Source of the DNA: a virus
IMG/VR virus record: IMGVR_UViG_3300020433_000009
Location: 1-52,170 of that record
DNA length: 52,170 nt
Reading direction: 5' to 3' (one strand)
Both the position numbers and the translations under genes were made by a program. How positions within the stretch are numbered: position 1 is the stretch's first letter; every line of letters begins with the position of its first letter. The notes below the pieces were generated by a model that worked only from the letters and a program-made list of their open reading frames with translations, made no database searches and was not told the DNA's origin. This document shows, piece after piece, positions 6,658-52,170 of this stretch.

Positions 6658-6685
6658 AGCATAGCATAAAAGAGAATAGTGTCAA
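6658..6685 (-). promoter_or_regulatory. Sigma70-like promoter for the ParB-like gene
   Basis: On the minus strand TTGACA (6680-6685) is followed after 16 bases by TATGCT (6658-6663). The -35 box is a perfect consensus; the -10 matches four of six. Transcription would start near 6650, about 40 bases before the ParB-like start. The -35 box lies in the loop of the terminator hairpin that ends the upstream gene. Confidence 0.55.
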
Positions 6686-6694
6686 GCTATTCTC
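6668..6694 (-). terminator. Terminator hairpin overlapping the CobT-like stop
   Basis: An eight-base-pair stem GAGAATAG/CTATTCTC (6672-6679 and 6687-6694) with a seven-base loop, followed in the minus direction by four T. The last codons and the stop of the CobT-like gene are inside the hairpin. The short T-run makes it weaker than the element at 5503-5528. Confidence 0.65.
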
Positions 6695-21488: not shown

Positions 21489-22139
21489 TCACAAACTTCT
21501 GAGAAATTGATCGAAAGCTCTAATCTTTCTCTCAGCAAGCTCTTGTTTTGAGGGAGCATTGTCAAGTGATTTCTTGACAGCCTCGATTTGTGCTTCTTTA
21601 ATCTTGCCATCTACAAGCGTCCACTCCTTACCTTCGTATATACCTTCAACGAATGCATCAGGTGCGGAAGGATCTGCTACTATATCTGCAGCAGTGGAAA
21701 GAATGAAGTCATCGGCTACTACGGATGTAGTACCCTCTTTTTTGAGAGAGCCTAAACCTCGTGAAGAAACACCGAGTTGTACCCCTTCCTCAAGCAAGTT
21801 CTTTGCGATCTTACCCATAGGGGTTTCTAACAACTTTGCTTTACCAATGAAGTTTTTACCTTCAGGTGTCAGCTCAACTATTTTATGTGATACACGATCC
21901 AAGTTTATAGTAGGACCTTCGGGATGACCAAGTTCACCAAGTGCCCTTCCGCGTCGAACGAACTCTTCGTTATACTTGTTGACTTCACGTGCCATAGTTT
22001 CGTATCTGTACATACGACCATTACGGTTTGTGATCTCTGTCTGAAGAAATACACCTTTGATGAAGGTATTTTTCTTACCGTCTTTGTCTTCGGTAAGTAC
22101 CTCAACAGGTTCTATCTGTTCAGTTATCAGTTTCATCAT
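21489..22139 (-). CDS. gp21: Prohead core protease gp21
   Basis: The start is set at 22139 (MMKLITEQIEP), where AAGGAAG lies just upstream; the frame is open to 22163. The product is about 216 residues (T4 is 212). The catalytic pattern of the gp21 serine protease family is present: His in ALGELGHPEGP and Ser in GVSSRGLGSL, with Asp in the following strands (VADPSAPDAF). It cleaves head proteins after L/I-x-E sites during maturation. It overlaps the upstream core protein gene by 20 bases. Confidence 0.93.
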   Translation of the reverse strand: MMKLITEQIEPVEVLTEDKDGKKNTFIKGVFLQTEITNRNGRMYRYETMAREVNKYNEEFVRRGRALGELGHPEGPTINLDRVSHKIVELTPEGKNFIGKAKLLETPMGKIAKNLLEEGVQLGVSSRGLGSLKKEGTTSVVADDFILSTAADIVADPSAPDAFVEGIYEGKEWTLVDGKIKEAQIEAVKKSLDNAPSKQELAERKIRAFDQFLRSL

Positions 22140-22395
22140 TGTCTTCCTTTTCGGTATCATCATTGCGATTTAAAACATCCGCTGTTTCTTCTGGTGATGC
22201 TTCGCCTTCTGGAGGTAATCCAGTGGCACCATCATCAGGCACATGCGGAAACATTCTATTCGCAATATCTAGTTTACTAGCATCAACTGCAGCTGCAGCT
22301 TTTACTTGCAACATATCTTTGAGCTTGCCAAGAGCACTTGCATCTTGTCCTCCGTCCCAAAGTAAATCAACGATTTCTCGTTCCTGTGTAGCCAT
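22120..22395 (-). CDS. Small prohead core protein (gp67-like)
   Basis: A 91-residue protein between gp20 and gp21, where T4 has genes 67 and 68. The first half is helical (LKDMLQVKAAAAVDASKLDI), the C-terminus very acidic (NDDTEKEDNDETDN), as in T4 gp67. It is probably an internal core protein trimmed by gp21. T4 gp68 has no separate counterpart here. It has a late-promoter-like element 22 bases upstream. Confidence 0.72.
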   Translation of the reverse strand: MATQEREIVDLLWDGGQDASALGKLKDMLQVKAAAAVDASKLDIANRMFPHVPDDGATGLPPEGEASPEETADVLNRNDDTEKEDNDETDN

Positions 22396-31369: not shown

Positions 31370-32707
31370 TTAAGTAATTACTCCAAATGGGTTTGTTTCA
31401 CTAAAGTCTAAAATATCGTCACCTAAGTTTTCAAAGGTTACGCTTTCTGAATATTTAGTATCTGTTGTTGCCATCTCATCTCTATTATCTAGTACCATGG
31501 TAGCACCAGAGTCTGAACCCATAATGGTTTCACCTATAGCGAAAGTAGCAGTTGGCGATTTAAGTTTGATCCAACCTTCTTGTGCATCCCACTCAACCAT
31601 CTGAGCTGTTGCACCAGTAGTACCACCAGTAACTGTTTCTGGTACTGTGAAAGTTCCAGATATTCCTTGTGGTGCAGCAGTAAATGCCATTGTTGCAGCT
31701 GTGTAACCAGTACCTGCATTAGTAATATCTATAAGTTTAACACTTCTATAACCAGAACCACCATTTAAAATATTGATTGCAGTCAAAACCCCATTGGTAA
31801 AAGTTGGTGTGACCGTTGCCTTTACGCCACCAGGATCAGGATCAGTTATCTGTAGAGTTGCTCTATCTTCATCATATCCCTCGCCACCATCTACTATGTT
31901 TACAGACATCAGTTGTCCTTGATTGACAATCCCTCTTATGACTGCAGATTTAGTTGGTGAACCACCAGACACAGTAATGTTTGTCATGAATGCAGTAGCA
32001 GCTGCATTGGATCCATTACCAGAAATAGTAATCGTAGGTGTTTCATTATATTTGCTACCATTGTTAGTAATGTAGATTTGATCAATACCACCATTGTCAA
32101 TAACTGGAGTTCCAGTTGCAGTAACACCATTAGTAGTGAGATAGTAATGTTTAACAGTATATCCGTAATCAATGAGATCCTCATCACCCTCAAATAGATC
32201 ACCTTGCTCGTTGCTGTATTCAAAGAGCTCACACTTGAGTTTGTAAACATAACCCTTACCAAGTTGATAGAAAGGTTCTTCATGTTCTACAAATTTAATC
32301 TCAAAGAAATTGCTAGTTATTGGGAAGTATATTAAATCTCCTTCTTGTGGTCTTTCTCCAACTTCAATAGTTGTACCCTTATCTAAAAGTAAGAACTGAG
32401 AAATTAAATCTGAAAATCTTTGTTGAGAGATTACCAAAGTTAATTCATCTGTTTGTCTAATACCAAACTTGGTCATTAAATCTCCACCACCTTGGAACCC
32501 ATCAAAGTTCTCTAGGTAACCTTCTATAATATATGCATCATCAAATTCAGAAATACTTTCCTCATTAAAAACACCATCCTTCATAACCATCTTACGAGGA
32601 CAGTAGAGGACATCCATCCCAAACATTTTAAGATGTTCTTCTACTAGGTTCTGTAATAGAAACTGTTCGTTTCTAGTACCATGAGTAAAGTATGTAGATC
32701 TTGCCAT
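31370..32707 (-). CDS. gp14: Neck protein gp14 with C-terminal repeat insertion
   Basis: A 445-residue protein, much longer than T4 gp14 (256). The first ~190 residues are the neck protein (YFTHGTRNEQFLLQNLVEEH, YCPRKMV, LISQFLLLDKGT, YQLGKGYVYKLKCELFEYSN). After this comes a ~180-residue stretch of beta repeats ending in GxGY: ITNNGSKY, IVDGGEGY, ILNGGSGY, ITNAGTGY. The extreme C-terminus (EMATTDTKYSE to FSETNPFGVI) is again gp14-like, so the repeats are an insertion. gp13 and gp14 join head to tail. It overlaps gp13 by one base. Confidence 0.92.
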   Translation of the reverse strand: MARSTYFTHGTRNEQFLLQNLVEEHLKMFGMDVLYCPRKMVMKDGVFNEESISEFDDAYIIEGYLENFDGFQGGGDLMTKFGIRQTDELTLVISQQRFSDLISQFLLLDKGTTIEVGERPQEGDLIYFPITSNFFEIKFVEHEEPFYQLGKGYVYKLKCELFEYSNEQGDLFEGDEDLIDYGYTVKHYYLTTNGVTATGTPVIDNGGIDQIYITNNGSKYNETPTITISGNGSNAAATAFMTNITVSGGSPTKSAVIRGIVNQGQLMSVNIVDGGEGYDEDRATLQITDPDPGGVKATVTPTFTNGVLTAINILNGGSGYRSVKLIDITNAGTGYTAATMAFTAAPQGISGTFTVPETVTGGTTGATAQMVEWDAQEGWIKLKSPTATFAIGETIMGSDSGATMVLDNRDEMATTDTKYSESVTFENLGDDILDFSETNPFGVIT

Positions 32708-33522
32708 TATCCAATCATGTCTAGTGGTGGTGTCTCATATTGAGATATCATTTCCTCTTCTAGTTTTGCTACTTTCTCTTTACCTTCGTTGTATATAAAC
32801 TCTCCGTTCATTGTAATTCCACCAGGCAACTGAGCTCCTTGAAACTTAATTAAGTTTGCACCCCACTGTCTTTGTATAAGTGCAGATACATATCTTTTCA
32901 TCCAAAGATCATTGTAAACTGCAGATGTATTTGTAGGATCTAGTGCACGATAAACTTCAAGAACTAAGAAGTCTCCATCATTTACATCAGTTTTAAAATC
33001 TAAATCTAGATACAATCTATCTCCCCTCATCTGGAATCTAGTTTGTTTCTGTCCTTCTAAGAGATAGTAGATATCTTCTAGTCTTCTATTGACCATCTCA
33101 TAGGTTAAAATTTCTGTGTTGGTTAGATCCCATAGATCATTCAATCTCCACTGATATCTAACATCAAATAAATTAGTTACATTCTTAGATTGGAATGGAA
33201 ATACTTTTATAACACTAGTAACATGCTCAGGAACTTTAAGATAATTATTCTGTTCCTTCCAATCAACTGCTAGTGCTGATGATGTTGCAGCTGTTACTTG
33301 AGTAGTAGTGTCAGTTGTCATGGCATCAATCATAGCCTGATTAAACTGAACTTTTAGATGGGTTCTGATGTAACCATCCATATGTCTTTCATTGTAAAAT
33401 TGGATAGCATCATCCACTAGATCAGATATCTGATCATCTTCAATATTAATTTCTAGAACAGGAGCACCGTTTTGACGCAATGCGTAGTCGATAAGTCCTT
33501 CTCTTGTTGATGGTGAGGCCAT
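32707..33522 (-). CDS. gp13: Neck protein gp13
   Basis: A 271-residue protein (T4 gp13 is 309). Conserved pattern: STREGLIDYALRQNGAPVLE, then QISDLVDDAIQFYNERHMDG near the N-terminus, KVPEHVTSVIKVFPF in the middle and WGANLIKFQGAQLPGGITMN near the C-terminus. It forms the neck ring on the portal together with gp14. It starts two bases from the upstream giant protease gene. Confidence 0.95.
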   Translation of the reverse strand: MASPSTREGLIDYALRQNGAPVLEINIEDDQISDLVDDAIQFYNERHMDGYIRTHLKVQFNQAMIDAMTTDTTTQVTAATSSALAVDWKEQNNYLKVPEHVTSVIKVFPFQSKNVTNLFDVRYQWRLNDLWDLTNTEILTYEMVNRRLEDIYYLLEGQKQTRFQMRGDRLYLDLDFKTDVNDGDFLVLEVYRALDPTNTSAVYNDLWMKRYVSALIQRQWGANLIKFQGAQLPGGITMNGEFIYNEGKEKVAKLEEEMISQYETPPLDMIG

Positions 33523-33523
33523 G

Positions 33524-36500
33524 TTATACAGGATTAACGTTGAATCTAATTCTTACATAATAAAGAGTATTCGCACTAAGCGTCACAGCATTAGGAAGAG
33601 TGTAAGATAATTTATTTACACTGTTGTCTCTAGACTCATGTACTATATTAGTAAATGTAGCTGCTGGTGAAAACTGCCAGAATGTTGATGTATGTTGGAA
33701 ACCACTCTTCACTTGTGCAGTCAAAGCTGTAACAGTAGGATTAAATGCAGGTGTGATAGTTTGAATATCTGGTTGATCAACAAATGGAGTAGTGAATGTC
33801 GATGCATTTGAGTATGCACTTTGTAAACCATTCTGATCTCTGAACTTAACTTGAACTGAATACTGAGTATCAAATTCAAGAATTCCTACAGGCACTGTGA
33901 GACTAGTTTTGTTTGCACTATCTCCATTAAGATTTATATTATTAGTATCATAGACAGTTACGTTGTCACTAACTCTTCTAATTCTCCAGTAAGAAGAACT
34001 ATGTGTTGAGCCTGCATATTCTTGAACGAATGGAGATGTAGTAATAACTGGTTGTCTTGATAAAGTTTTAGTAGTGTCTGGATCTATGAATGGTGTAACT
34101 GTAGTTGGAGAAGATACGAACTCTGATTCATTAACAGTTAAAGTAGCAGATGTAGATGTTACAGAAGTTGCATTAGTGTTTGATAGAACACAACGGAATT
34201 GTTCTGATGGATTAGTTGGATATGTTGTTGCGGGTGTTGTATATGACGCTGAGTTTGCACCATTAATAGCACTCCAATTTGCTCCACTATCAGTTGAGAT
34301 CTGCCACTGATAAGAAATAACTCCACTTGTAATAGCAGCAGTTACACTGAAACTTGCAGTTTGTCCCTCAATAACAGCAGTGTTTTGAGGTTGTTGACTG
34401 ATAGTGATAACACGTAATACAGTCTGTAATGCAAAACCAGATGTTATAGGTGCAGCTGATCCAACAAGAGATACGATACATTGGAAACGATCGTCATTAT
34501 CATCAGCAAATACTAAAGTTCCAGTTGTATATGAGTCTGTTGTTCCACCTGTACCAGTAGAAACATTTGCATAGTTTGCACCACCATCATCAGATTTTTG
34601 CCACTGGTATGTTGGAGTTCCACTACTTGTTGATGCTGATACAGTGAAGTTACTGACTGAACCTTCATTAGATGTTACATTAGATGGTTGTGCTGTGATA
34701 GCAAATGTCCTTTCTACAGTCAGAGTTACAGCATTTGTATATGCTTTGACAGTTGCACCAACTGCATCTAACTCACAACGATACTGATCATTATGATCAT
34801 CTGCGTATGTTGTGCCAGCAGTTGTATAACTTGAATTTGTTGCACCACCTATGTTTGACCAGTTGACTCCTCCATCATCTGATTTCTGCCATTGGAAACT
34901 TACGTTTGGACTATGATCTGATTGACTTTGAGCATTTTCTGATCCTCCTCCACCGCCAGGCGTTGTCCATGATTCCGTTTCATATGATGAAGATGCAGCA
35001 TTACCACCAATGATTGACATGGTAACTGATCCAGTACAACTAAATGTTGCTGTAGCTGTTTCATTCACAGTTGCATCCTGTGGTTGATTTACAACATTAA
35101 CAGTTACTGTCTCTACCTGTAAGGTAACAGCATTTGATGCTATCTGTGTAGCACCTGTACAAGACAATACACAACGGAATTGATTTGCATCGTAGGATGC
35201 ATCCAATACAGGAGTTACATAAGTTGCTGTAGTTCCACCAGTTCCTGCAGATACATTATTCCAAGAAGCACCATTTGTATTTGATATCTGCCATTGGTAT
35301 GTTATATCGTTAGCATCATTATCTGAAGTATTTGCTACAACATTGAATGTTCTTGTTCCACCAACAGCACCTGTAGTTCCTTGAGGTTGAGTGGTAATAT
35401 TAATTGTTCTAGTTACGAACAATCTAGCAGCAGTTGAGATAACTTCAGATGCACCAGTGCAATTTAATTTAACTCTATAATAATCTCCATAATCTGCATC
35501 ATATGTTGTGGCTCCAGTAGTATAACTTGATGTGGTAGCACTACCTATATTAGTGTATGTTGCACCATCACCATTTTCTGATTTCTCCCATTGGTAGGAT
35601 AATGCTGCTCCATCTGCTACTGATGCAGTTACATTAAATGTACCAGCTGCAGGTGCAATAGGTGTTGCATTGCTTGGTTCAGCACTTATAGTAATCACTC
35701 TGAATACTGTTAGTGTGACAGCATTAGTATAAGCTGATGCCACTGCAGTGCTAGTATCTAACTTACAACGGAACTGATATGAATTTTTTCCATAGTCATC
35801 ATTGACTGTCAATGTATTACTTGTCACGTTAGTATAACCACTACCTTCAGATAGGGCAGACCAGTTAGCACCACTGTCAGTAGATACTTCCCATTCATAT
35901 GTAATGGTAGATCCGTCAGAACTGATAGCTGATATAGGACCAAATGTAGCACTTGTACCAGCACCTGCTTCTATACTTGCGTTACTAGGTTGTCCTGTAA
36001 CTGTAATAAGAACACCAGTTCCTGCAGTCGTAAAACTGAATGCACGAGTATTGTTTGTTATTTGCTCAACTACAGTAAAGTTAAAGGTTGTATCAATATA
36101 ATCTGATGTAACTGTACCACTCAATATACCCGTTGTGCTGTTTAATGAAAGACCTGAAGCACCAAGTGCGTCACCTGTAGTTGTATAAAGTTCGTAGGTC
36201 GGTTCATTAGCAAATGTCAGACCAGATAAACCAAGGTCAATACTAACACTAGCACCATTTGCAAATGGACTTCCAGTTATTGCACCAGAAGCTTGTGCCC
36301 ATGTTACTGTAGTATCAACATAAGGGAAAAATGCTCCTCTCTTTTTAGTTAGAACATCAGTGTTAGCATCATATTTAAAGTCCACTCCACTATCTACTGG
36401 ATAGTATTTTACATTATCATATACACTGGTGCCCTGTGCTTCTTGAGTATCAGTTTGAGATCTTAGTTGAGTAGAGGTAAAGACAACACCATCTGTACTT

Positions 36501-39013
36501 TCATGTGTTATTGCTTCCGAATCAATCAGTGCAAGATAGTTATTTGATCCACCACCAGTGGCACTAGCACTAGCATTACTAGCTGACTGAACGGTAATCG
36601 TATTATTGATTGCATCCTCAGCAGTTATGTTTAACCATCCACCTTGAGATAATCCAGAAATGTCTGTACCACCAAGAACAACACCACCTGAACTAGGATC
36701 AGTTTGAACTGTGATAGTTCCATTCATTGAGTTGTGATTAGAACACTGATAGTAATATGTGCCTGCAGTATTTGGTGTCCATGATACTGTTGCAGTTCCT
36801 GTAGATCCTTGTCCAGTAGCAGCTGGTGTACTTACTTGATTGCCAGTTCCAGTTCCCTGTACACTCTTAAGATAAAATGGATGAGAACCACTGACACCTG
36901 ATAAGTTAAAATTGATAGTGTCTCCAACATATACAGTAACACCTACATTGTTTCCACCTACTCCACCATTTCTATCAGTTCCACTTAGTGTGTAATACGA
37001 AAATGAAGGAGCTGTTGTTGTTATATTGTATGTTACAGCGTTACCACTACCACCTTCTGTTGATCCTGTAGTTCTTAACTGAACCTTTTTACCAACATTA
37101 CCAATGAAGTGACTGCTATCAGATGAGTTAAAGGAGATTTTTATATTCTGACTTCCACTGGTAACCTCGTATGGGTTAGTTGGTAGTTTTCTTTCTTCGA
37201 TACTATTTGTTGGATAGAATTGAGTTACACCCTTTGTTATATCTCCAGTGTTACCAGTTCCCCTGATAAATTGTTTTCCTAGTGATGCAAAGTTATTAGT
37301 TGTTAGAGTATATCCATTCTTTCCAGCCCAACATGCCATGATACCTGCAACTAGAGGACATGAGAATGATGTACCACCAATAGTTGCATAGTTTGCAGTG
37401 CTATTATATGGTGTGTTTGCAGTCCAGTCATACTTAGGAAGACGAATATTTTTACCAGGTGCACAAACAGTAGCACCAGCACCATAGTTAGAAAAGTCTG
37501 CCCATCTATCATTATAGTCTGTAGCACCTACAGAAATCTTTGCTTGATCTACATCTACATTGTTTACACCACCAGTTGTGTTATCAGCATAACCAGCAGT
37601 TCTTGCTCCAACTACAACCTTAGACATCAAAGGTCCTGCAAAATTATCACCAGAGTCTTTAAATCCATTACCTGCAGATCTACAAATCAATATCCTTTGA
37701 GAAGCAGCTATGGTTCCTTCGATATCATCTAATACTTCTTCATCAGTTCCTGTGTCATCACCTGCATCATTTAGTTCAACATATGGATAAGACTGACTTG
37801 GAAGTCCTGAACCTATGGAAGTATTAACAATAGCTGGTCTGGTATTACCTTTATAGTTTGCATTACTACTATCATTATGATCTATGACTGCCTGATATGC
37901 ATTTAATATAGCAGTATATGTACCACTACCTGAAGAGTTCAAGCATTTGAGTGCATATATTTTTGCATTAGATGCAAATCCACAGGTTCTACCTGCAGCT
38001 AAGATAGCACAATAAGTACCGTGATCATTATCATCTTCGTTGTTAGTACCATAATCACCAGAGTAATGTGGTAATTGGTACACTCTATAGTTCTGTTGTT
38101 CGGCAGTTCCGTTTAGATCAGTAACAAAATCTGGATCATACAATTCAGGATGTAGAGCTGCGTTGTTACCTGTTGGTCTACTTGCACCACGAACTCCGCT
38201 ATCTAAGATATAGATATCAACTCCATCACCAGTGGCACCACTATTACTGTACTCACCATTCATATACTGTCTGTCTTGTTTGGTCAGTCTGTCTAAATGC
38301 CAAAAGTCATGTACGTTAAGTGTCCCATATCTGTTAGGAGAAGTATCATATCTTCCCATTCCAGCGTGGTTTAGGCAATAGTAAAATAAAACTGAAGGTG
38401 TAGATGAACCAAATACTACAGTTGTGTTAGCACCTGATTGTCCTGCAACTCCGTTATAGGTTACACCTGTTGAAAATTCTACACCGCCAGTTGTATATGA
38501 TCCGTCAGGTGTAGTAGAAAATCTTATAGGATGGGTTGCATTACTAGGATGTGATTGATCAAAAATATATGTCGCACCTTGTAAGAAACCACTGAAGTAT
38601 GAAGTGACGACAAAAGTAACATTATCACTTGAGAATGAATATACGTTTGATCCACTGCCTTGCCAGTTAGATGCAACTTGAACATATATTGTGTTCGTGC
38701 TTGATGCAGTAATATTTCTTGTATTCGTAGTAGCTTGTGAAACTACCTCCCCACTAGTCTGTACCTCTTCTCCCTGAGCAGACACAGCTCCAGAAGAATA
38801 TGCTAGTTTATCCCAAAACGCTTTCTTAACAACATTAAGTGCATTGAGTTTCTCTAGTAAACCATTCTCATATTGTTCTGGACATTCCAATGAAAATGTC
38901 TTAAAACTTCTATATGCTTTATAATTGGTTAGGAAACCGTATAATTTTAGGATGGCAGCACATGCAGAATCCAAACTATAATTACCAGAAACCCTGATGA
39001 CTACCTTCTTCAT
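33524..39013 (-). CDS. Giant virion-type protein: subtilisin, cupredoxins, Ig and FN3 repeats
   Basis: I start at ATG 39013 (MKKVVIRVSGN), giving about 1,829 residues; a TTG at 39025 is also in frame. Domains: an I9-like propeptide region (1-70); cupredoxin-like domain 1 (about 100-230) with His161, Cys213, His216, Met219; a subtilisin S8 domain (about 255-590) with Asp271 (YILDSGV), His331 (DHGTYC), oxyanion Asn449 (SAGNG) and Ser549 (GGTSFSCP); cupredoxin-like domain 2 (about 660-770) with His710, Cys756, His759, Met762; a variable region; six Ig-like repeats with YQWQ and FRC motifs (about 34120-36010 in DNA); two FN3-like repeats. The protease triad and both type-1 copper sets appear complete. 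It lies upstream of gp13 with a late-promoter element, so a virion or tail-surface role is inferred. Confidence 0.88.
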   Translation of the reverse strand: MKKVVIRVSGNYSLDSACAAILKLYGFLTNYKAYRSFKTFSLECPEQYENGLLEKLNALNVVKKAFWDKLAYSSGAVSAQGEEVQTSGEVVSQATTNTRNITASSTNTIYVQVASNWQGSGSNVYSFSSDNVTFVVTSYFSGFLQGATYIFDQSHPSNATHPIRFSTTPDGSYTTGGVEFSTGVTYNGVAGQSGANTTVVFGSSTPSVLFYYCLNHAGMGRYDTSPNRYGTLNVHDFWHLDRLTKQDRQYMNGEYSNSGATGDGVDIYILDSGVRGASRPTGNNAALHPELYDPDFVTDLNGTAEQQNYRVYQLPHYSGDYGTNNEDDNDHGTYCAILAAGRTCGFASNAKIYALKCLNSSGSGTYTAILNAYQAVIDHNDSSNANYKGNTRPAIVNTSIGSGLPSQSYPYVELNDAGDDTGTDEEVLDDIEGTIAASQRILICRSAGNGFKDSGDNFAGPLMSKVVVGARTAGYADNTTGGVNNVDVDQAKISVGATDYNDRWADFSNYGAGATVCAPGKNIRLPKYDWTANTPYNSTANYATIGGTSFSCPLVAGIMACWAGKNGYTLTTNNFASLGKQFIRGTGNTGDITKGVTQFYPTNSIEERKLPTNPYEVTSGSQNIKISFNSSDSSHFIGNVGKKVQLRTTGSTEGGSGNAVTYNITTTAPSFSYYTLSGTDRNGGVGGNNVGVTVYVGDTINFNLSGVSGSHPFYLKSVQGTGTGNQVSTPAATGQGSTGTATVSWTPNTAGTYYYQCSNHNSMNGTITVQTDPSSGGVVLGGTDISGLSQGGWLNITAEDAINNTITVQSASNASASATGGGSNNYLALIDSEAITHESTDGVVFTSTQLRSQTDTQEAQGTSVYDNVKYYPVDSGVDFKYDANTDVLTKKRGAFFPYVDTTVTWAQASGAITGSPFANGASVSIDLGLSGLTFANEPTYELYTTTGDALGASGLSLNSTTGILSGTVTSDYIDTTFNFTVVEQITNNTRAFSFTTAGTGVLITVTGQPSNASIEAGAGTSATFGPISAISSDGSTITYEWEVSTDSGANWSALSEGSGYTNVTSNTLTVNDDYGKNSYQFRCKLDTSTAVASAYTNAVTLTVFRVITISAEPSNATPIAPAAGTFNVTASVADGAALSYQWEKSENGDGATYTNIGSATTSSYTTGATTYDADYGDYYRVKLNCTGASEVISTAARLFVTRTINITTQPQGTTGAVGGTRTFNVVANTSDNDANDITYQWQISNTNGASWNNVSAGTGGTTATYVTPVLDASYDANQFRCVLSCTGATQIASNAVTLQVETVTVNVVNQPQDATVNETATATFSCTGSVTMSIIGGNAASSSYETESWTTPGGGGGSENAQSQSDHSPNVSFQWQKSDDGGVNWSNIGGATNSSYTTAGTTYADDHNDQYRCELDAVGATVKAYTNAVTLTVERTFAITAQPSNVTSNEGSVSNFTVSASTSSGTPTYQWQKSDDGGANYANVSTGTGGTTDSYTTGTLVFADDNDDRFQCIVSLVGSAAPITSGFALQTVLRVITISQQPQNTAVIEGQTASFSVTAAITSGVISYQWQISTDSGANWSAINGANSASYTTPATTYPTNPSEQFRCVLSNTNATSVTSTSATLTVNESEFVSSPTTVTPFIDPDTTKTLSRQPVITTSPFVQEYAGSTHSSSYWRIRRVSDNVTVYDTNNINLNGDSANKTSLTVPVGILEFDTQYSVQVKFRDQNGLQSAYSNASTFTTPFVDQPDIQTITPAFNPTVTALTAQVKSGFQHTSTFWQFSPAATFTNIVHESRDNSVNKLSYTLPNAVTLSANTLYYVRIRFNVNPV

Positions 39014-39040
39014 CCCATCTCGCAATTAGTCCTTCAGGTT

Positions 39041-39048
39041 TATTTATG
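39041..39048 (-). promoter_or_regulatory. Late-promoter-like element CATAAATA
   Basis: CATAAATA on the minus strand overlapping the TAA stop of the 114-residue gene. It is 28 bases before the chosen ATG of the giant protease (16 from the TTG); the 22-50 base spacing of the other elements favours the ATG. Confidence 0.55.
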
Positions 39049-39388
39049 CCTTTTTATTCATATCTACTTGTTTAAGTAATCTTGCAATTTCTGTCTCGTC
39101 AACAACCTTATCCATTCTTTCTACTGGTTTACAGAACTTTAAATCGTGACTTGCATCAAATACATATTTCTGTCTACAATGAGTTCTATCTCTTTCCACA
39201 ATAATATGATAAGATTTACCATATACATTCTCTGTAAATCCTATTGCTACGATTGCCCTATTCTCATAAAGATCACCAACTTTATAAGGACAAGTCTCTG
39301 CAGTGCCATCAAAAGGAATATAGAACTGTGTAGAATTGACATGTTCTAACTTCCTAGCTTCACTAGATGGTATGTTTTTTCGATGCAT
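39044..39388 (-). CDS. Hypothetical protein
   Basis: A 114-residue protein with beta-strand pattern (RAIVAIGFTENVYGKSYHII, KYVFDASHDLKFCKPVER) and a helical charged C-terminus (DETEIARLLKQVDMNKK). Three Cys and several His are present but not in a known motif. It shares one base with the stop/start of the upstream 2OG-like gene (TAATG). Function unknown. Confidence 0.7.
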   Translation of the reverse strand: MHRKNIPSSEARKLEHVNSTQFYIPFDGTAETCPYKVGDLYENRAIVAIGFTENVYGKSYHIIVERDRTHCRQKYVFDASHDLKFCKPVERMDKVVDETEIARLLKQVDMNKKA

Positions 39389-39981
39389 TACTTTAACTCC
39401 AAGTTACATAGATCGTCTTGTTCACCAAAGGTACCAGAAAGAAATACATTAAATGATATACTATATCTCATTTGATCCAAATCATTTTTAGCAGTCTGAT
39501 GTTTTAGATAACTGGGAAACAATAGTAGGTCTCCTTTATTTGGATTGATAATGCAATCAGTTACATTATAAAAATTTGGTTGAGCTACATCAGGAATAAT
39601 CATCTTTGGTACTGGATCAAAAAACCTGATGGGAGGATAATTTATATCTTGAGGATAATATGCCCCAGATATAAAACTATTAGGATGTGAGTGAGTATGA
39701 ATATATTCATTGGATGCACACCCTGTAGCCCACATAGTACTTATGCGAGGAAATATGTTTTTATATTCAAAAACATTAGCGAATGAATATTTTACTGCTT
39801 CTAGAAACATCCCAGATAATGTCCAGAACCTCTCATCCTGATGCAAATTAGTCTTAGAAATAGAGAAACCATCTCCATCTTCTAAAACTTTTTTAATATC
39901 CTCTTGTACTTTTTGATGATCAATACCAATATCACAGACCACTAGGGTCTGTGGAAACATACTGAATACTGTTTTAATCAC
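39388..39981 (-). CDS. 2OG-Fe(II) oxygenase-like protein 1 of the tail cluster
   Basis: 197 residues from GTG 39981, or 190 from ATG 39960 (MFPQTLVV), which matches the usual FPTP-like start of the family; both remain possible. IHTHSHPNSFISGAYYPQDI carries the proximal His motif and LLLFPSYLKHQTAKND then RYSISFNV carries the distal His and the Arg. The pattern is that of the 2OG-FeII_Oxy_5 family, in which HxHP occurs at the position of the classic HxD. Substrate unknown. The GTG overlaps the stop of the coiled-coil ORF. Confidence 0.72.
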   Translation of the reverse strand: MIKTVFSMFPQTLVVCDIGIDHQKVQEDIKKVLEDGDGFSISKTNLHQDERFWTLSGMFLEAVKYSFANVFEYKNIFPRISTMWATGCASNEYIHTHSHPNSFISGAYYPQDINYPPIRFFDPVPKMIIPDVAQPNFYNVTDCIINPNKGDLLLFPSYLKHQTAKNDLDQMRYSISFNVFLSGTFGEQDDLCNLELK

Positions 39982-40153
39982 CTACTTTAACTTCACCTTC
40001 TTCTTTTTGAGACATAGTTAGTGCTTCTATTGCACCCTCTAATCTCAATACCTGTTCTTTTCTTTGACTGAGTTGTTTTTCAAGTTCAACAATAGTAGCC
40101 TTTTGCTCTACCAATTGACCATTAAACTCTTTGATCATGTCTGGGATTTCCAT
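39974..40153 (-). CDS. Small coiled-coil protein
   Basis: A 59-codon ORF read from the DNA. MEIPDMIKEFNGQLVEQK, then IVELEKQLSQRKEQVLRLEG show a heptad pattern for one long helix, with a charged tail. It lies between two 2OG-like genes and overlaps the next by 8 bases. There is no strong Shine-Dalgarno. It may form a small trimeric or dimeric coiled coil. Confidence 0.65.
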   Translation of the reverse strand: MEIPDMIKEFNGQLVEQKATIVELEKQLSQRKEQVLRLEGAIEALTMSQKEEGEVKVGD

Positions 40154-40177
40154 AGTTTAAAATAATAACTGTTATAT

Positions 40178-40816
40178 TTAGAAGTGCTCTGCACCATCGA
40201 CTATACCATAGTCTAACACAATATTGCCAGAAATGCTAACTCGTGGTATTCCAGAGAACCCCTTGAATGGATATACTACATGGTTTACCCATGCAGGAAA
40301 TAATATTACTTGACCTTCTATACCTTTTTCAACATTGATTAATTTATTAAACATAGAGAATGGATCTGAGAATTCTGTAAATCCATTCTTTACATGTTGT
40401 GGTAGAACGTCAGGTTCTAATTTACATTGATCCTCATGTGTATATGGCACACTCATGTATACAACAAAACTAAACAACCCAGTATGTTGATGTAAAGGTT
40501 GATAAGAATTTGAATACATTTCATTTCTCCAAAGATCCACCAACTTAAATGGTGTCCTAGGTGGAGTGTTCTGTCTGATCTGATGAAATACAGGAGCAGT
40601 TGCACATTCTCTAGCAAAAGCCTCTGATAAACAAATTATATAATCCTCAAACAAAGGTGCTTTACTTATTCCTAGTTTGTATTCGTCTGGGAATACTCCA
40701 ACTAATTTATCTCCATGGTGACCACCATTCTTTAAATTATTCAGTTCTTCAAAAATATCCTCTGGAAGTTGACTGTACATCAAACAAGGATAATCAAAAT
40801 GATAATTTATATTCAT
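40178..40816 (-). CDS. 2OG-Fe(II) oxygenase-like protein 2 of the tail cluster
   Basis: A 212-residue protein. YQPLHQHTGLFSFVVYMSVP holds the proximal HxH motif, and GQVILFPAWVNHVVYPF followed by GIPRVSISGNI holds the distal His and the 2OG-binding Arg. It diverges strongly from its neighbours in the N-terminal half. It overlaps the next upstream gene by four bases. Substrate unknown. Confidence 0.7.
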   Translation of the reverse strand: MNINYHFDYPCLMYSQLPEDIFEELNNLKNGGHHGDKLVGVFPDEYKLGISKAPLFEDYIICLSEAFARECATAPVFHQIRQNTPPRTPFKLVDLWRNEMYSNSYQPLHQHTGLFSFVVYMSVPYTHEDQCKLEPDVLPQHVKNGFTEFSDPFSMFNKLINVEKGIEGQVILFPAWVNHVVYPFKGFSGIPRVSISGNIVLDYGIVDGAEHF

Positions 40817-41526
40817 GTAATCATCTTATAGTTTGGTTTTATAGATTTATCTGGATGCTCATCCCATCCTTCTTTAGTTAGGATGTCCATTGCAATTGTT
40901 ATTCTTTCAAATGGATGATCATGTTTATCTGTCCAATGCACTAAATGGTTTGGAAACATAAAAATTTCACCTGGTTTATTTGCAAACCCCTTAACTACTT
41001 GTTTGTTAAATGGGTTAGAATAATATGTACCAGTTCTATTTGCAGCGATGGTTAGGTGTGCACCTATAAAACTATCTTTATAAGAACTATGCCAATGAGG
41101 TAATATTTGTTCTCCAGATCTCATTACGTTTGCCCAACACTGAGAGTAGTATTGTTCCTCTCTATGGTTGAACCCATCTACTTGTCCGCAACCAATATCC
41201 CACAATCCTTCATCATGCATGTATTGCCCCATGGCTGCACAACCTCTGTTGATTGTATCTCTTAATGTATTGACCCATGGCTCATCCCATTCCCATACAC
41301 TAAACGCACTAAATTTTGCAGTGAGACTATCTCCTCCAAGACCAGTGCCACCATCATTAGTGACATCTTTGAAGTCATGTATTATCTCTTTTTCTCTTCT
41401 TAGAATACTTTCTCCTATTTCTTTACACTCGTCTCTAGTAAATACTGTTTCAGTATAGAAAGGAAAGTTCCAATTAGGTGCAAAAGGAGTTCTAGGAAAC
41501 TCAGATTTCCATTCAATAATAGGCAT
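40813..41526 (-). CDS. 2OG-Fe(II) oxygenase-like protein 3 of the tail cluster
   Basis: A 237-residue protein. ILPHWHSSYKDSFIGAHLTI gives the proximal His pattern and GEIFMFPNHLVHWTDKHDHP with RITIAMDI the distal half. A long N-terminal part (ECKEIGESILRREKEII, KFSAFSVWEWDEPWVNTLRD) is specific to it. It shares one base with the next upstream gene and overlaps the downstream gene by four. Substrate unknown. Confidence 0.66.
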   Translation of the reverse strand: MPIIEWKSEFPRTPFAPNWNFPFYTETVFTRDECKEIGESILRREKEIIHDFKDVTNDGGTGLGGDSLTAKFSAFSVWEWDEPWVNTLRDTINRGCAAMGQYMHDEGLWDIGCGQVDGFNHREEQYYSQCWANVMRSGEQILPHWHSSYKDSFIGAHLTIAANRTGTYYSNPFNKQVVKGFANKPGEIFMFPNHLVHWTDKHDHPFERITIAMDILTKEGWDEHPDKSIKPNYKMIT

Positions 41527-42164
41527 TATTCAGCTTGATATAAATTCCAAGTAGCTAGTTTTGCTTGAGATGATGCTGCATTGCAAGGTCCTATAGGAAT
41601 ACAATTAAAACTAATTGACCATCTCGAAAATTCTTGTACATGGTTCAACGTACCATGCTTCAACCAACTAGGAAATAATAATAACTTTCCAGCTTCAGGT
41701 ATCATCCCCCATTGTTCAGGAGTTTTTTGTGGATCCACACTGTATAGTTTTATCATACCCTCTCGTCTTTTATCTACAGGATCACAGAACATAGTGGGTG
41801 CACCATCAGTCAGATAGAATACACCACTGATATATGACATTGGGTGATGATGTATCTCATGTTTACCTGCCTTGAAACCAGGCGACAGGTTAGCCCACAT
41901 GATACTAATATCTAATTTTTCACATTCATATTCATAATGTGATCTATATTGCTCTACGCAATCCTCAAAGAAATCTGTTATCTCTTTATACCTAGGATCT
42001 TTATGCAAATCATGTCGAGTTTGCCAAACTCTTTCTGGATGTTCGGGTTGTGCTTGATTTACATTGATATAATCTTCTTCTTCCAGATTAGATATAATCT
42101 GTTTAAAATCAAACTCCGCTTTAAACACATGTACAGGTGTCGGAAAGATATTGTATATGTCCAT
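41526..42164 (-). CDS. 2OG-Fe(II) oxygenase-like protein 4 of the tail cluster
   Basis: A 212-residue member of the 2OG-FeII_Oxy_5 type. It starts DIYNIFPTPVHVF, the classic family N-terminus; IMWANLSPGFKAGKHEIHHH then PMSYISGVFYLTD holds the proximal His residues (His105/107), and GKLLLFPSWLKHGT (His170) with RWSISFNC (Arg181) completes the site. The best family match of the cluster. Substrate unknown; phage copies are often near tail-fibre genes. Confidence 0.8.
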   Translation of the reverse strand: MDIYNIFPTPVHVFKAEFDFKQIISNLEEEDYINVNQAQPEHPERVWQTRHDLHKDPRYKEITDFFEDCVEQYRSHYEYECEKLDISIMWANLSPGFKAGKHEIHHHPMSYISGVFYLTDGAPTMFCDPVDKRREGMIKLYSVDPQKTPEQWGMIPEAGKLLLFPSWLKHGTLNHVQEFSRWSISFNCIPIGPCNAASSQAKLATWNLYQAE

Positions 42165-46823: not shown

Positions 46824-49800
46824 CTATACTACACTCCATGTACCACCATCATTTACAGTTATGGTTACGCCATTATTTATAGTGATTGGACCAGCGGTCA
46901 TACAATTATCTGAGGAAGTAATTGTAATGCTTTCACTACATGTATTTCTATTTCTCTTGAATACACCGTAACTATCTATCCACTGTTTATCACCTGATGC
47001 TCTTAGAACTGTGCTCTTCTGTCCAGATGATAAACTCTCACTTGCATTCAAGTTAATACCATTTAACTGGTTAACTTGTAAACCATATGTTGATTGTGTT
47101 GTATCACCACCTGAGTAGAATGTCCAACAACCACTAGAATCAAGAGATCCAATACCACCGTCACTATCATTTCTATAGAAGAAATCAGTACCAGTTCTCA
47201 TGTATGTAGCAGCATTATTAGCAAAGTAGAATCTTGGTTGACCCTCAGAACTGCTTCTCCATCCGTTAATTTGAGCAGAGAAATATGGTAGGTTAGTTGC
47301 ACTATAACCATCAAGTAAGTCTGCGTTTAGGTTAGTAACAACTGTTGTTGAAGCAACTACAAATGGTGCAGTTCCTTGTGCAACTCTTGATTTAACCTGT
47401 CCAAAGAAGTGGAATGTAGGATCATTATAACGATACTTAGCAACTCTACTATCTACACCATTGTCTCTTCTGTAGAATGTGATATCATCACCTTGCTCAG
47501 AACCAAATGAGGCTGGAGAATTATCTCCATTGTATGCAATACCACCACCATAGACATTTGATTGTCCAATGTATAAGTAACCTGTACCTTGGTTATTACC
47601 GTATGCTTCAAAACCACACTGATAAGAGTCACCTGCGTGTGCTCTAACGTATGTGTTAGCAGATCTACTAGTGGTTCCAAAGATGGCATCTCCAGTAGAC
47701 TCTATTGAGGTAGCTGGATCGCTATCACCAATACCTATACGTCCGTTACGGAAGTATACGTTGTTGTATGATAGATATGTACCATTCCATCCAAAGGAGT
47801 TGGTGTCATTACCAAATCTTATAAAACCTGAGTTTGAATCATTTTTACCCTTAATGGATAGAGCATTAGTGGTTGCCTTACCTAGAGTAATACCATTGCT
47901 ATCTGCAAGATCAAGTATTGAAGTACCTGTGTTTGCAAACGTACCTTGGTCAGCAGTTAAATCAGAGATTGTTAAGTTACCTGATGCATCTCTACGTGCA
48001 ATTGTATTTGCAGTAGCAGTTGTTGCTTGTGTAAATCCATCTAGGTAATGAGCGTCTAGCTGAGATGATGAGCCATCGTTACCTGCATGCCATATAGTAT
48101 TACCATTGACAGTTAAGTCACCTGCATTAAATCTTAGAGTACCATTTCCATCGTTACTGTTACCACCAGAGACGATCATTTGAACGTCATAGTTTGCGGC
48201 TGAACCACTAGAACGGAAATCTAATGTTGGAGTTGTAGAGACTGATGATTTACCAATCTGTAATTTAGCACCAGCTGCAGCATCTGTCATGCTAACCAGT
48301 GTGCTAGAACCACTGTTAATTAAATTAGATGATGATACAGTCCACTTAGTGCCAGGATTAGGACCGAAGACATATATGTTTGCGTTAGTATTGCTACCAA
48401 CAAAGTTAATTGTACCTGTAACTAATGAATATATTTCACCAGATGTATGAGTAAGTTCTTGAACACCGTTAGCATCAACTACGATTGAACCGATGTTATT
48501 TGTTGCACCAACATCTGAGTAGATAGTAAATGTTCCACCGTTAGTAATATTACCACCAGCACCAGTAGCACAGTGGAAGTTAGGAATGTAAAGTGTATAT
48601 TTTAAACCACTATCATTAAGATAGAAATTCTCAAATACAATCTTGTTCTGACCAAGAACTTCTGGTAAGAACATGTCACCGATAGGATGAATTCCTGCAC
48701 GAGTGTCACCTACGTTATAACCAGACTGATACCATAGTCCTTGTGAACCATCTAATTTATCAGCATCTAATCCACTGCCAGAACCATCATTAAATCCAGA
48801 CCAGATCTTATACCAGTTACCATATACAGCGTTACCACCAGAGTTACCTCTTAACCAAAGATTATCATTATCTGTGAATGCAAGTTGTATTGCAGCACTA
48901 CCAGTTGCTTCACGTCTGTATGTAAGAATACCATGTGTAGTTCCACCATCTGTTAGACCAGTAGCAGCGTTATTTCTTAGTGCAGCACCAAGACCATTTG
49001 CAGCTTGTGCAGGAGATGGGTTTGATGTAAGTGATGAGGTCTCGTTAAAGATTCTGTTTGCGGTGTCAGCAGTACCAGATATAGAAATTGCATATATTTG
49101 GTTTGCAAGTCTTGCAGCTGGTAATGTTCCTTGAGATAGGTTAGATGCGTTTGTATAGAAACCACCGTCGTTACCATCTAGTTTGTCAGCATTAAGTTCT
49201 GAACCAGGACCTTGGTCAATTCTTACTTGTCCATCATTGTCAATGATAAATCCACCTTCATCTTGATTACCAAGTGCTTGGTTTGCAACATCTTTTCTAA
49301 ATCTGAATACACCGTAGTTACCAAATGTTGTTGCATTAGGAGTTAAGTTATCACCCTTTCTAATATCAATTTCGATGTTACCAAATGCACGGTTGATAGT
49401 TCCCTTAACAGCAGTCAATGCACCAGAACTACCACCACCAAGTTCAGATGGTATTACAACACTAAATCCAGCAGTATATCCTGTACCAGAGTCAGTTACA
49501 GTAGCAGATGTGATGACACCACCTGAAACAACATATGTTGCTCTTGCAACACCATCAGCAGAAACGCTAACGTTACCACCCTCTAGTGGTAAGTTTTGAT
49601 AAGTTCCATCTGTGTATCCTGTACCACCGTTTGTAATTGTGATGCTGTCAATATAAGAACTATCAGTTACAGATCCAGTAACTAATATCGCATCTTGTGT
49701 AGTAGGTCTAATTGACTGTAATGCATACTCCCATGATGAATCACCACGTAAGAATGTAAAGGAGTTTGCAGTACCCTTACTTGCCATCCTTTCTGGGTCA

Positions 49801-52170
49801 ATAGTACCTGCAACAATATTAGAAGCATCAATGTTTGTTGATGTTAACTGTGTCCAGTTAGCAGCTGTAGATGCTGAAGTATTGATAACTCTGGATAGAT
49901 CAATAATTCTCTTACGATTGAAGTTACCAGATGTGGTGCCAGAAGTCGTTGCAGTTACTGAATACTGATTAGAGTTGATTAAAGATATTGTATAGAAACC
50001 ATCAGCAGCTGTACCACTTGTAAAGTCTAAGTAAACAAGAGATGCATTAGATAGATTATGTGTATTTTCAGTGACAGTAATGGTAGTGCCAGTCTGACTG
50101 TAAGTACCTGTTCCTAGATTTGCAAGAGCTTGATCAAGAATAAAGTCACCTGCATCAAACTTAATAGCATTTGCAATATTAATATTAACTCTACCTTCAA
50201 TCTGAGCAGCAACTACTGCGTTATTGGATGCACCGCCAGGTGATGTTTGTACTTGTACAGTTGGTTGATTATAGTATCCTTTACCTGGATTAGTAATGGT
50301 AACTTTAGTAACTACACCACTTGTTACATTAGCAGTAGCAGCAGCTTGAACACCATTACTGGTATCATCAGGTGCAGATATTGTTAGTGCAAAATCACCA
50401 GCGTATTGTGAACCACCATCACTGATAATAAAGTTAAAGATTAAACCATCATTGTAGTTTGTTACAGTACCACGAGCAGTAGTAGAACTACCTGCAATAA
50501 TATCACCGTTAGTAAATTGGAATGCACTGTTAGGTGTAAATGCTAAGAACTGACTTTCAAGATCATTTTCAAGAATATATGAAACAGCAGTACCTGCAGT
50601 CTCAAATGAATGTGTACCTGAACCTTGACCACTTAAAGGAACAGCCTGACCATTAGTTGCATTAGATGTAGTTGTTGCAAGCTTGATTGTGTTGTCATCA
50701 ACCTTGATAACATAGTAAACAGTTGCGGTTGATAATCCACCAATTGCTGTAGTACCCGCAGTGTATGTTAATTGATCTCCAGTTGAAACTCCATGATTTG
50801 TAATGGTGATCTGATTGTTAGATGTATTAACAGATGCAGGTGCAACACTAAATGTAGTAGAAGTTGTTTCAATAGCAATGTCACCAGCATTTGCGTCTTC
50901 AATTGCTAGTCTTTCTGCTGTAGATGCAACAGAAGTAATATTGAATGGACGTAATGCAGGTATCTGATCAATATTGATCTTACCATTTGATGTCAACTGA
51001 ACAAGGGCAGATGGAACTGCGTTTGTTGAGAATGGTTGGTTTAGATATGGTCCTAGGTTGTTTGAAATATAATCTCTAACAGATGCCTGTGTAGGTAACA
51101 GTGCATCTGATGCGAATGTTCCACCTAAGTTGTCATCATCAGAGAAACCAGTAATCGTGATAGCACCACCAACGATCTTAATAGATGATAGTTCAGAGAT
51201 ACTAACAGTACCAACGAAACTAATAGCACCAGTTCTGTTGAAGATAGTAACAAAATTACCAACCTTGAAATCACCAAACTCGTTAGTACCTGATGTATAA
51301 ACTTGTCCAAAGTTTTGTTCTGCAGCTTCAAATGCAGACCCTAAACCAAATCCACCGTTCTGTGGTAGAGCAGCATAGGTATTACCTGATCCAGAGAATT
51401 CCCAAGTGTGTGATGATGAGTTACATACAGATGGTCTATGGAATCTAATTGTTTTACCTACAAGACCATTTAAGTTACCAGCAGCATAACTGTATACAGT
51501 TCCATTGCTACTATCAGTGTAACTCATGGATATGTTAGTTGTTATCTTAGCAACAATCTGTGAGCCAGGAGCACCACTAATAACATTAGTTTCTAAGATA
51601 ATAGTTTCAACAGCAGGGTTGGTTAACGTTGTACCATCAATCTTAATAATATAATCTTCAACAGGAATGTTAGTTAGAGTTGTACCAGAAACCTGAATAA
51701 CTTGTCTACCTGTTGGAACTCCATTTCCATCAACATCATTTACAACACTATCAATAACACCAACGTCAAATGAGTATGCTTCTGCCCTGAATCCAGTTGC
51801 ACGAAGAGAGAACGTTCCGAAGTTGGATGCAGAGTTGGTTACAGAAGCATAACCACCAGACTGTACAAGAATACCATCTTGACAGAAGATAGCAAACACA
51901 GAAACTAACTGTGTGTAACCATCGTTAGTAACGTTATACGCAGTACCACCAAAACATATAATGGTGAATGCGTTTGCAACCATTGACTTACCTTGTGGGT
52001 CAAACTGTGCAACTGTATTTCCTTGTGCGTTCTGTTTTAAACCAGGTCTAGGTACGTTAGGTGTAGCAACCTTAGCACCATCAATCTCACAACCAGAACC
52101 ACCAAGGAATGATATAAGTGAAGAGTTCTGAATGTAAGGAGATGCTTCAATAACTGGAAGATCTAGGAAT
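46824..52170 (-). CDS. Giant tail-fibre protein, 5' end outside the window
   Basis: The frame stays open from the stop at 46824 to the right window edge; a Met at 51983 is internal, because upstream codons keep coding (SPYIQNSSLISFLGGSG, then QGNTVAQFDPQGKSM). At least 1,782 residues. It contains beta-rich GxGY repeats (TITNPGKGYY, TITNGGTGY, VTDSGTGY), four or more DA-x-LDG motifs (LNADKLDG, LDADKLDG, LDAHYLDG, LNADLLDG), an IGIGDSDP-type shaft segment and a C-terminus AGPITINNGVTITVNDGG typical of marine phage fibres. It probably forms the long distal fibre or an adhesin shaft. Confidence 0.85.
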   Translation of the reverse strand, partial: FLDLPVIEASPYIQNSSLISFLGGSGCEIDGAKVATPNVPRPGLKQNAQGNTVAQFDPQGKSMVANAFTIICFGGTAYNVTNDGYTQLVSVFAIFCQDGILVQSGGYASVTNSASNFGTFSLRATGFRAEAYSFDVGVIDSVVNDVDGNGVPTGRQVIQVSGTTLTNIPVEDYIIKIDGTTLTNPAVETIILETNVISGAPGSQIVAKITTNISMSYTDSSNGTVYSYAAGNLNGLVGKTIRFHRPSVCNSSSHTWEFSGSGNTYAALPQNGGFGLGSAFEAAEQNFGQVYTSGTNEFGDFKVGNFVTIFNRTGAISFVGTVSISELSSIKIVGGAITITGFSDDDNLGGTFASDALLPTQASVRDYISNNLGPYLNQPFSTNAVPSALVQLTSNGKINIDQIPALRPFNITSVASTAERLAIEDANAGDIAIETTSTTFSVAPASVNTSNNQITITNHGVSTGDQLTYTAGTTAIGGLSTATVYYVIKVDDNTIKLATTTSNATNGQAVPLSGQGSGTHSFETAGTAVSYILENDLESQFLAFTPNSAFQFTNGDIIAGSSTTARGTVTNYNDGLIFNFIISDGGSQYAGDFALTISAPDDTSNGVQAAATANVTSGVVTKVTITNPGKGYYNQPTVQVQTSPGGASNNAVVAAQIEGRVNINIANAIKFDAGDFILDQALANLGTGTYSQTGTTITVTENTHNLSNASLVYLDFTSGTAADGFYTISLINSNQYSVTATTSGTTSGNFNRKRIIDLSRVINTSASTAANWTQLTSTNIDASNIVAGTIDPERMASKGTANSFTFLRGDSSWEYALQSIRPTTQDAILVTGSVTDSSYIDSITITNGGTGYTDGTYQNLPLEGGNVSVSADGVARATYVVSGGVITSATVTDSGTGYTAGFSVVIPSELGGGSSGALTAVKGTINRAFGNIEIDIRKGDNLTPNATTFGNYGVFRFRKDVANQALGNQDEGGFIIDNDGQVRIDQGPGSELNADKLDGNDGGFYTNASNLSQGTLPAARLANQIYAISISGTADTANRIFNETSSLTSNPSPAQAANGLGAALRNNAATGLTDGGTTHGILTYRREATGSAAIQLAFTDNDNLWLRGNSGGNAVYGNWYKIWSGFNDGSGSGLDADKLDGSQGLWYQSGYNVGDTRAGIHPIGDMFLPEVLGQNKIVFENFYLNDSGLKYTLYIPNFHCATGAGGNITNGGTFTIYSDVGATNNIGSIVVDANGVQELTHTSGEIYSLVTGTINFVGSNTNANIYVFGPNPGTKWTVSSSNLINSGSSTLVSMTDAAAGAKLQIGKSSVSTTPTLDFRSSGSAANYDVQMIVSGGNSNDGNGTLRFNAGDLTVNGNTIWHAGNDGSSSQLDAHYLDGFTQATTATANTIARRDASGNLTISDLTADQGTFANTGTSILDLADSNGITLGKATTNALSIKGKNDSNSGFIRFGNDTNSFGWNGTYLSYNNVYFRNGRIGIGDSDPATSIESTGDAIFGTTSRSANTYVRAHAGDSYQCGFEAYGNNQGTGYLYIGQSNVYGGGIAYNGDNSPASFGSEQGDDITFYRRDNGVDSRVAKYRYNDPTFHFFGQVKSRVAQGTAPFVVASTTVVTNLNADLLDGYSATNLPYFSAQINGWRSSSEGQPRFYFANNAATYMRTGTDFFYRNDSDGGIGSLDSSGCWTFYSGGDTTQSTYGLQVNQLNGINLNASESLSSGQKSTVLRASGDKQWIDSYGVFKRNRNTCSESITITSSDNCMTAGPITINNGVTITVNDGGTWSVV

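Follow-up and report, generated by a model that had tools for sequence, protein, structure and literature searches.

A giant predicted subtilase with two cupredoxin-like domains and an Ig/FN3-like stalk, encoded beside the neck gene of a P-HM1-like marine phage

What would a marine phage do with a giant protein that joins a serine protease to domains resembling blue-copper proteins, encoded directly beside its neck gene? The gene that raises this question lies at 33524-39013 on the minus strand of the window, the whole 52,170-base virus record that was analyzed, and encodes 1829 amino acids from an ATG at 39011-39013; all features of the protein given below are on the same strand. An alternative TTG start gives an open reading frame of 33524-39025, and residues are numbered here from this TTG at 39025. 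The ATG at 39013, Met5 in this numbering, is the likely start, being favored over the TTG by the orthologue alignment (MKKVV/MKRVV). In order, the protein comprises a propeptide-like start of βαββαβ topology, cupredoxin 1, an S8 subtilase domain, cupredoxin 2, a domain without a Pfam match, an He_PIG domain, six Ig-like repeats, and two FN3-like repeats. The DNA of the adjacent gp13 gene is 79-81% identical to that of the Prochlorococcus phages P-HM1, P-HM2, and MED4-213, and hypothetical proteins of these three phages share 62-63% identity with the S8-cupredoxin protein across 100% of its length, the P-HM1 orthologue being PHM1_104 (T4-GC 519). Judged by these sequences, the contig is P-HM1/P-HM2-like.

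The protease had been recorded before. In Sullivan et al. (2010; PMC3037559), an S8 peptidase, T4-GC518, is listed with the genes restricted to P-HM1 and P-HM2, and the term "plastocyanin" is used only for the separate petE gene. T4-GC518 is very likely the gene analyzed here, and the protease part of the protein was therefore already known. The literature searched yielded no description of the copper domains of this protein and no relevant paper on blue copper or cupredoxins in phages.

The S8 catalytic domain (37271-38302, about residues 242-585) was recognized by both profile and fold. Its Asp/His/Ser triad and oxyanion Asn, all proposed in the initial annotation, correspond to D275 (38201-38203), H335 (38021-38023), S553 (37367-37369), and N453 (37667-37669), and the four are invariant in a 67-sequence alignment that includes members down to about 48% identity. 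PF00082 matches the N-terminal piece of the protein at E=6.5e-27, S8 being unlisted in the scan of the full-length protein. Searches with phmmer and hmmsearch gave matches to aqualysin and proteinase K, and among proteins of solved structure the best matches are aqualysin, keratinase, and proteinase K-like enzymes. In addition, Foldseek aligned the S8 model with subtilases at 2e-12, and the AF2 model contains low-confidence stretches inside the S8 region. Proteolytic activity of the domain is likely.

Upstream of the protease, residues 5-75 (38801-39013) form a beta-alpha-beta-beta-alpha-beta domain in the AF2 model, with a pLDDT of about 85-94. This topology supports the earlier description of an I9-like start at the level of fold only, but no sequence match to I9 (PF05922) was obtained in Pfam or the PDB, and the domain is therefore classed as propeptide-like rather than as an I9 member. 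In Foldseek, the model aligned with unautoprocessed pro-subtilisin E (3whi_B) across 615 columns at an rmsd of 8 A, which suggests a propeptide docked on the protease. The linker that follows (38735-38800, residues 76-97) is predicted with low confidence, at a pLDDT of about 50-67, and is a candidate region for autocleavage.

Both C-x2-H-x2-M motifs on which the proposal of copper domains was founded were seen again, at residues 217-223 and 761-767, each with an upstream His (165 and 715). Cupredoxin 1 (38306-38734, residues 98-240) holds H165 (38531-38533), C217 (38375-38377), H220 (38366-38368), and M223 (38357-38359). Cupredoxin 2 (36680-37063, residues 655-782), a cassette missing in some orthologues, holds H715 (36881-36883), C761 (36743-36745), H764 (36734-36736), and M767 (36725-36727). 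Against the PDB, the profile of cupredoxin 2 retrieved few proteins other than plastocyanin (E=0.001), amicyanin, copper nitrite reductase, rusticyanin, and auracyanin; its C-x2-H-x2-M loop aligns gap-free with that of amicyanin, and its orthologues match PF00127 at up to 1.1e-7. By these sequence comparisons, domain 2 has the cupredoxin fold. The sequence profile of cupredoxin 1 gave no reliable match in the PDB. For this region, structure prediction is consistent with a cupredoxin-like domain, with a confident AF2 model (core pLDDT about 90-98) whose Foldseek matches are mostly laccases and multicopper oxidases and are weak (E 2e-3 to 1.5e-2). The two domains also align with each other in hhalign (probability 92.7, E=4e-7) with their ligands in register. 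Relative to the predicted strands, the first His lies just before a strand and the Cys at a strand end, with the second His and the Met both within the loop that follows, a placement that agrees with a cupredoxin. Conservation and predicted folds together support complete type-1 ligand sets in both domains, as the initial annotation had claimed, and copper binding is predicted.

The conservation of these ligands is best judged from the proteins gathered by S8 patterns only, the trusted subset, in which the ligands did not serve as bait; elsewhere a ligand bias is possible, one genome-scan pattern containing C..H..MG and one cupredoxin-2 pattern containing Cys. Within the trusted subset, cupredoxin 1 carries HCHM in 34 of 36 proteins and HNTM in the remaining 2, and cupredoxin 2 carries HCHM in 21 of 21. 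A broader set of 140 domains sharing less than 80% identity, some of them fetched by ligand-containing patterns, comprises 125 with HCHM, 9 with HCHQ, and 6 without both the Cys and the second His; in none of the 140 was either of these two residues lost singly. H165, C217, and H220 rank within the top six of 110 columns by conservation. Replacement of Met by Gln or Leu is restricted to the axial position, and Gln or Leu as the axial ligand is a known variation in stellacyanin and laccase-type sites. A disulfide role for the conserved Cys was considered and ruled out, since exactly one Cys is present in 130 of the 134 Cys-bearing domains.

These patterns bear on whether the domains bind metal at all. 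Ligand-free versions retain the remaining domain, as would be expected if the cupredoxins were metal-free beta-sandwiches in which the conserved His, Cys, and Met are structural, but this reading is quite improbable given the joint presence or absence of the Cys and second His, the confinement of the Met-to-Gln/Leu change to the axial position, the single Cys, the rank of the ligands among the most conserved columns, and the blue-copper profile matches. The co-loss of Cys and His carries little statistical weight because the events are few: the ligand losses in cupredoxin 1 amount to 2 events by parsimony, too few for an independent-pairs test to inform.

The two copper domains differ in how they persist among orthologues. 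In a few of them, including L161 and L163, cupredoxin 1 is ligand-free with the rest of the domain kept. In several orthologues cupredoxin 2 is missing and the flanking sequence is joined cleanly inside LRT-GST / GSLTVG, and in L161, L162, and L163 a series of cupredoxin-2-type cassettes follows the Pfam-unmatched domain. As read from these sequences, cupredoxin 1 is retained even when ligand-free, and the cupredoxin-2 type is a cassette present in some proteins and absent from others. Copper is thus not essential to this protein in every phage.

Two segments beyond cupredoxin 2 add to the domain list of the initial annotation. One is the conserved domain without a Pfam match (36311-36676, about residues 784-905, ~120 amino acids), which precedes the cupredoxin-2-type cassettes in L161 and L163, and the other is an Ig-like He_PIG domain (36011-36313; PF05345, E=3e-4, below the curated cut-off). 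The six Ig-like repeats counted earlier (34127-36007, residues 1007-1633) were found with a repeat HMM at 111-129 bits each, scores that indicate mutual likeness only, as the model was built from the same repeats; they also match Ig_3, Felix-O1-type phage proteins, and PHROG head/tail families. The fourth repeat has a Gly/Ser-rich insert. Likewise, two FN3-like repeats were located at the C-terminus (33527-34120), the first as a weak Pfam fn3 match and the second by similarity to the first. Around residues 1420-1530 of the orthologue, the Ig region of three further sequences (L253, L275, and L294) holds one more cupredoxin, the third, whose ligands are HCHQ, Gln standing for the axial Met.

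The neighborhood agrees with the earlier placement of the gene in a virion region. The neck/head-tail adaptor gene gp13 (32707-33522, minus strand) is directly downstream, the P-HM1 orthologue holds the same position before gp13, and the surrounding genes encode gp13 (neck/Ad2), gp14/Hc2, the sheath stabilizer gp15, terminase, sheath, tube, portal, the gp21 protease, scaffold, and the major head protein. A T4-type late-promoter-like motif, ATAAATA, lies at 39041-39047 on the minus strand, 28 bp upstream of the ATG. The 12 ATAAATA motifs of the window are all on the coding (minus) strand, and 9 of them precede a gene start by no more than 60 bp; their total is not above chance, and AT-rich intergenic sequence could explain part of this placement. 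The gene is probably expressed late.

Other features of the window are recorded here as observations. The gp14 homologue (31370-32707) has a C-terminal extension resembling baseplate wedge and tail fiber families. Separated from the protease gene by one small gene, four consecutive phrog_81 2OG-Fe(II) oxygenase genes occupy 39388-42164 (39391-39981, 40181-40816, 40816-41526, and 41529-42164). A giant tail-fiber-like open reading frame (46824-52169; phrog_5342) runs off the window end, and a 731-amino-acid protein (6682-8877) with a match to the phrog_459 "peptidase" is another possible protease of the virus.

As a protease encoded among head and neck genes, the S8 protein might be taken for a replacement of the T4-type prohead protease, but a separate head maturation protease, the gp21 homologue, is encoded at 21492-22163 (E=1e-80); this role was rejected and is extremely improbable. 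The same gp21 bears on a broader reading, in which the S8 domain would serve phage assembly only, cutting itself (the propeptide and perhaps the stalk) or neighboring giant fiber proteins with the host untouched, and the mature protein would be a passive decoration or whisker. The propeptide-like start upstream of S8, the giant fiber-like gene nearby, and the resemblance of the Ig repeats to decoration proteins (PMC11821841) are in keeping with it. With gp21 in place, however, no known assembly step requires an S8 protease, and S8 relatives are rare, occurring in 24 of 50,697 phage records. This reading is regarded as somewhat unlikely.

Whether the protein belongs to the particle at all has also to be weighed. 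The virion-surface role proposed earlier gains partial support from synteny, the late-promoter-like motif, the likeness of the Ig repeats to head/tail proteins, and a cupredoxin-bearing "virion protein" of phage S-SCSM1. No virion proteomics of this phage, P-HM1, or P-HM2 was found in the literature searched. The proteome in Sullivan et al. (2010; PMC3037559) is that of S-SM1, and the S8-cupredoxin protein itself is not covered in the accessible parts of the virion papers on S-SM1, S-CREM1, and S-SCSM1. This gap in proteomics, together with the occurrence of the cellular cupredoxin module in lipoprotein-like surface proteins, would suit a non-virion effector or protease that is freed at lysis and acts on debris or neighboring cells. 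Such a role is unlikely in view of the head/neck operon position, the late-promoter-like motif, the Ig/FN3 stalk, and the virion proteins with a cupredoxin in other cyanophages.

The reading that we favor, if tentatively and at a little short of an even chance, is a late-expressed and probably virion-attached adhesin-protease. The protein would be made as a zymogen whose propeptide-like N-terminus aids folding of the S8 domain and blocks it. Self-cleavage in the linker after this domain would leave cupredoxin 1 tethered to the protease. The Ig/FN3 stalk may keep the head of the protein at a distance from the neck or tail and stick weakly to cells; the Ig repeats of T4 Hoc-type proteins are thought to adhere weakly in this way. 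Inspection by eye revealed no signal peptide in the S8-cupredoxin protein, which points to acquisition of copper outside the host cytoplasm: cupredoxins made in the cytoplasm would take up the metal only after lysis. Their main role may be that of surface or adhesion modules, stapled by metal, which marine surface proteins exchange with one another. Trimming of host envelope proteins by the protease could ease adsorption or tail passage.

The cupredoxin module extends well beyond this protein. Domains of the cupredoxin-1 type occur in annotated phages of Synechococcus, Prochlorococcus, Pelagibacter, and Methylophilales, in proteins named tail fiber, baseplate wedge, or virion structural protein, and the predicted structures match. 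For instance, the "long tail fiber proximal subunit (virion protein)" of S-SCSM1 carries a cupredoxin domain with all four ligands, and a "virion structural protein" of S-TIM5 also contains one; a virion proteome of S-SCSM1 is reported in PMC9602691. Among GTDB genomes (L307-L386), contigs classified as SAR86, marine Euryarchaeota, Bacteroidetes, and Gammaproteobacteria encode the domain. The proteins that carry it often begin like lipoproteins, and some of them contain cadherin/Ig or collagen repeats. A viral origin is probable for some of the contigs, such as L307 and L308, which encode orthologues of the S8 protein. Pfam and NCBIfam model the module poorly and recognize few of its members. 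It is apparently a common, unnamed building block of the surface proteins of marine viruses and microbes, and this wider family is the more interesting outcome of the analysis.

A bolder combined reading places working blue-copper centers on marine virions, as an interchangeable module that also occurs on the surface proteins of SAR86, marine archaea, and other plankton; in the S8-cupredoxin protein, extracellular copper would activate or stabilize a self-processing protease able to open the cyanobacterial envelope, or would permit electron exchange between virion and host surface. As a whole, this is a distinctly long shot. Should the copper sites prove real, the particles of marine phages would contain copper redox centers, which no paper found in the literature searched describes, and one cupredoxin family would connect phage fibers with surface lipoproteins of abundant ocean microbes. 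If true, it could be tested whether any phage virion contains copper and whether cyanophages use a protease to cross the host envelope.

Among known systems, the closest are the full-length orthologues in P-HM1 (PHM1_104), P-HM2, and MED4-213, which are annotated as hypothetical with no copper domain noted there. The peptidase S8 of S-BM3 (WDS61281.1) likewise combines S8 with Ig repeats and two C-x2-H-x2-M cupredoxin-like segments, but it spans 2650 amino acids from stop to stop and has one of these segments inside S8, before the oxyanion Asn. In phrog_9158 proteins, such as the subtilisin-like serine protease of S-H9-1, S8 is followed directly by a cupredoxin-2-type domain; these differ in being about 670 amino acids long and in having no Ig stalk, and the S-H9-1 gene sits in a structural gene cluster. 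S-CREM1 encodes a different S8 peptidase between baseplate wedge genes (L303, 4596-6275). In T4, the fibritin gene (wac) is directly before gp13, the position that the S8-cupredoxin gene occupies here, but segments of the present protein match Ig, He_PIG, and fn3, and it is therefore not classed as a fibritin. Tandem Ig-like repeats are shared with the Hoc-type decoration proteins of T4 and with those of Felix-O1 type (PMC11821841; PDB 9ncf), in which neither a protease nor a cupredoxin has been reported, and the match is confined to the Ig repeats. Finally, amicyanin, plastocyanin, and copper nitrite reductase (PF00127 and relatives) have the same ligand order as the phage domains, and amicyanin also has the C-x2-H-x2-M spacing; unlike these proteins, to which sequence similarity is weak, the cupredoxin domains described here are fused into a giant protease.
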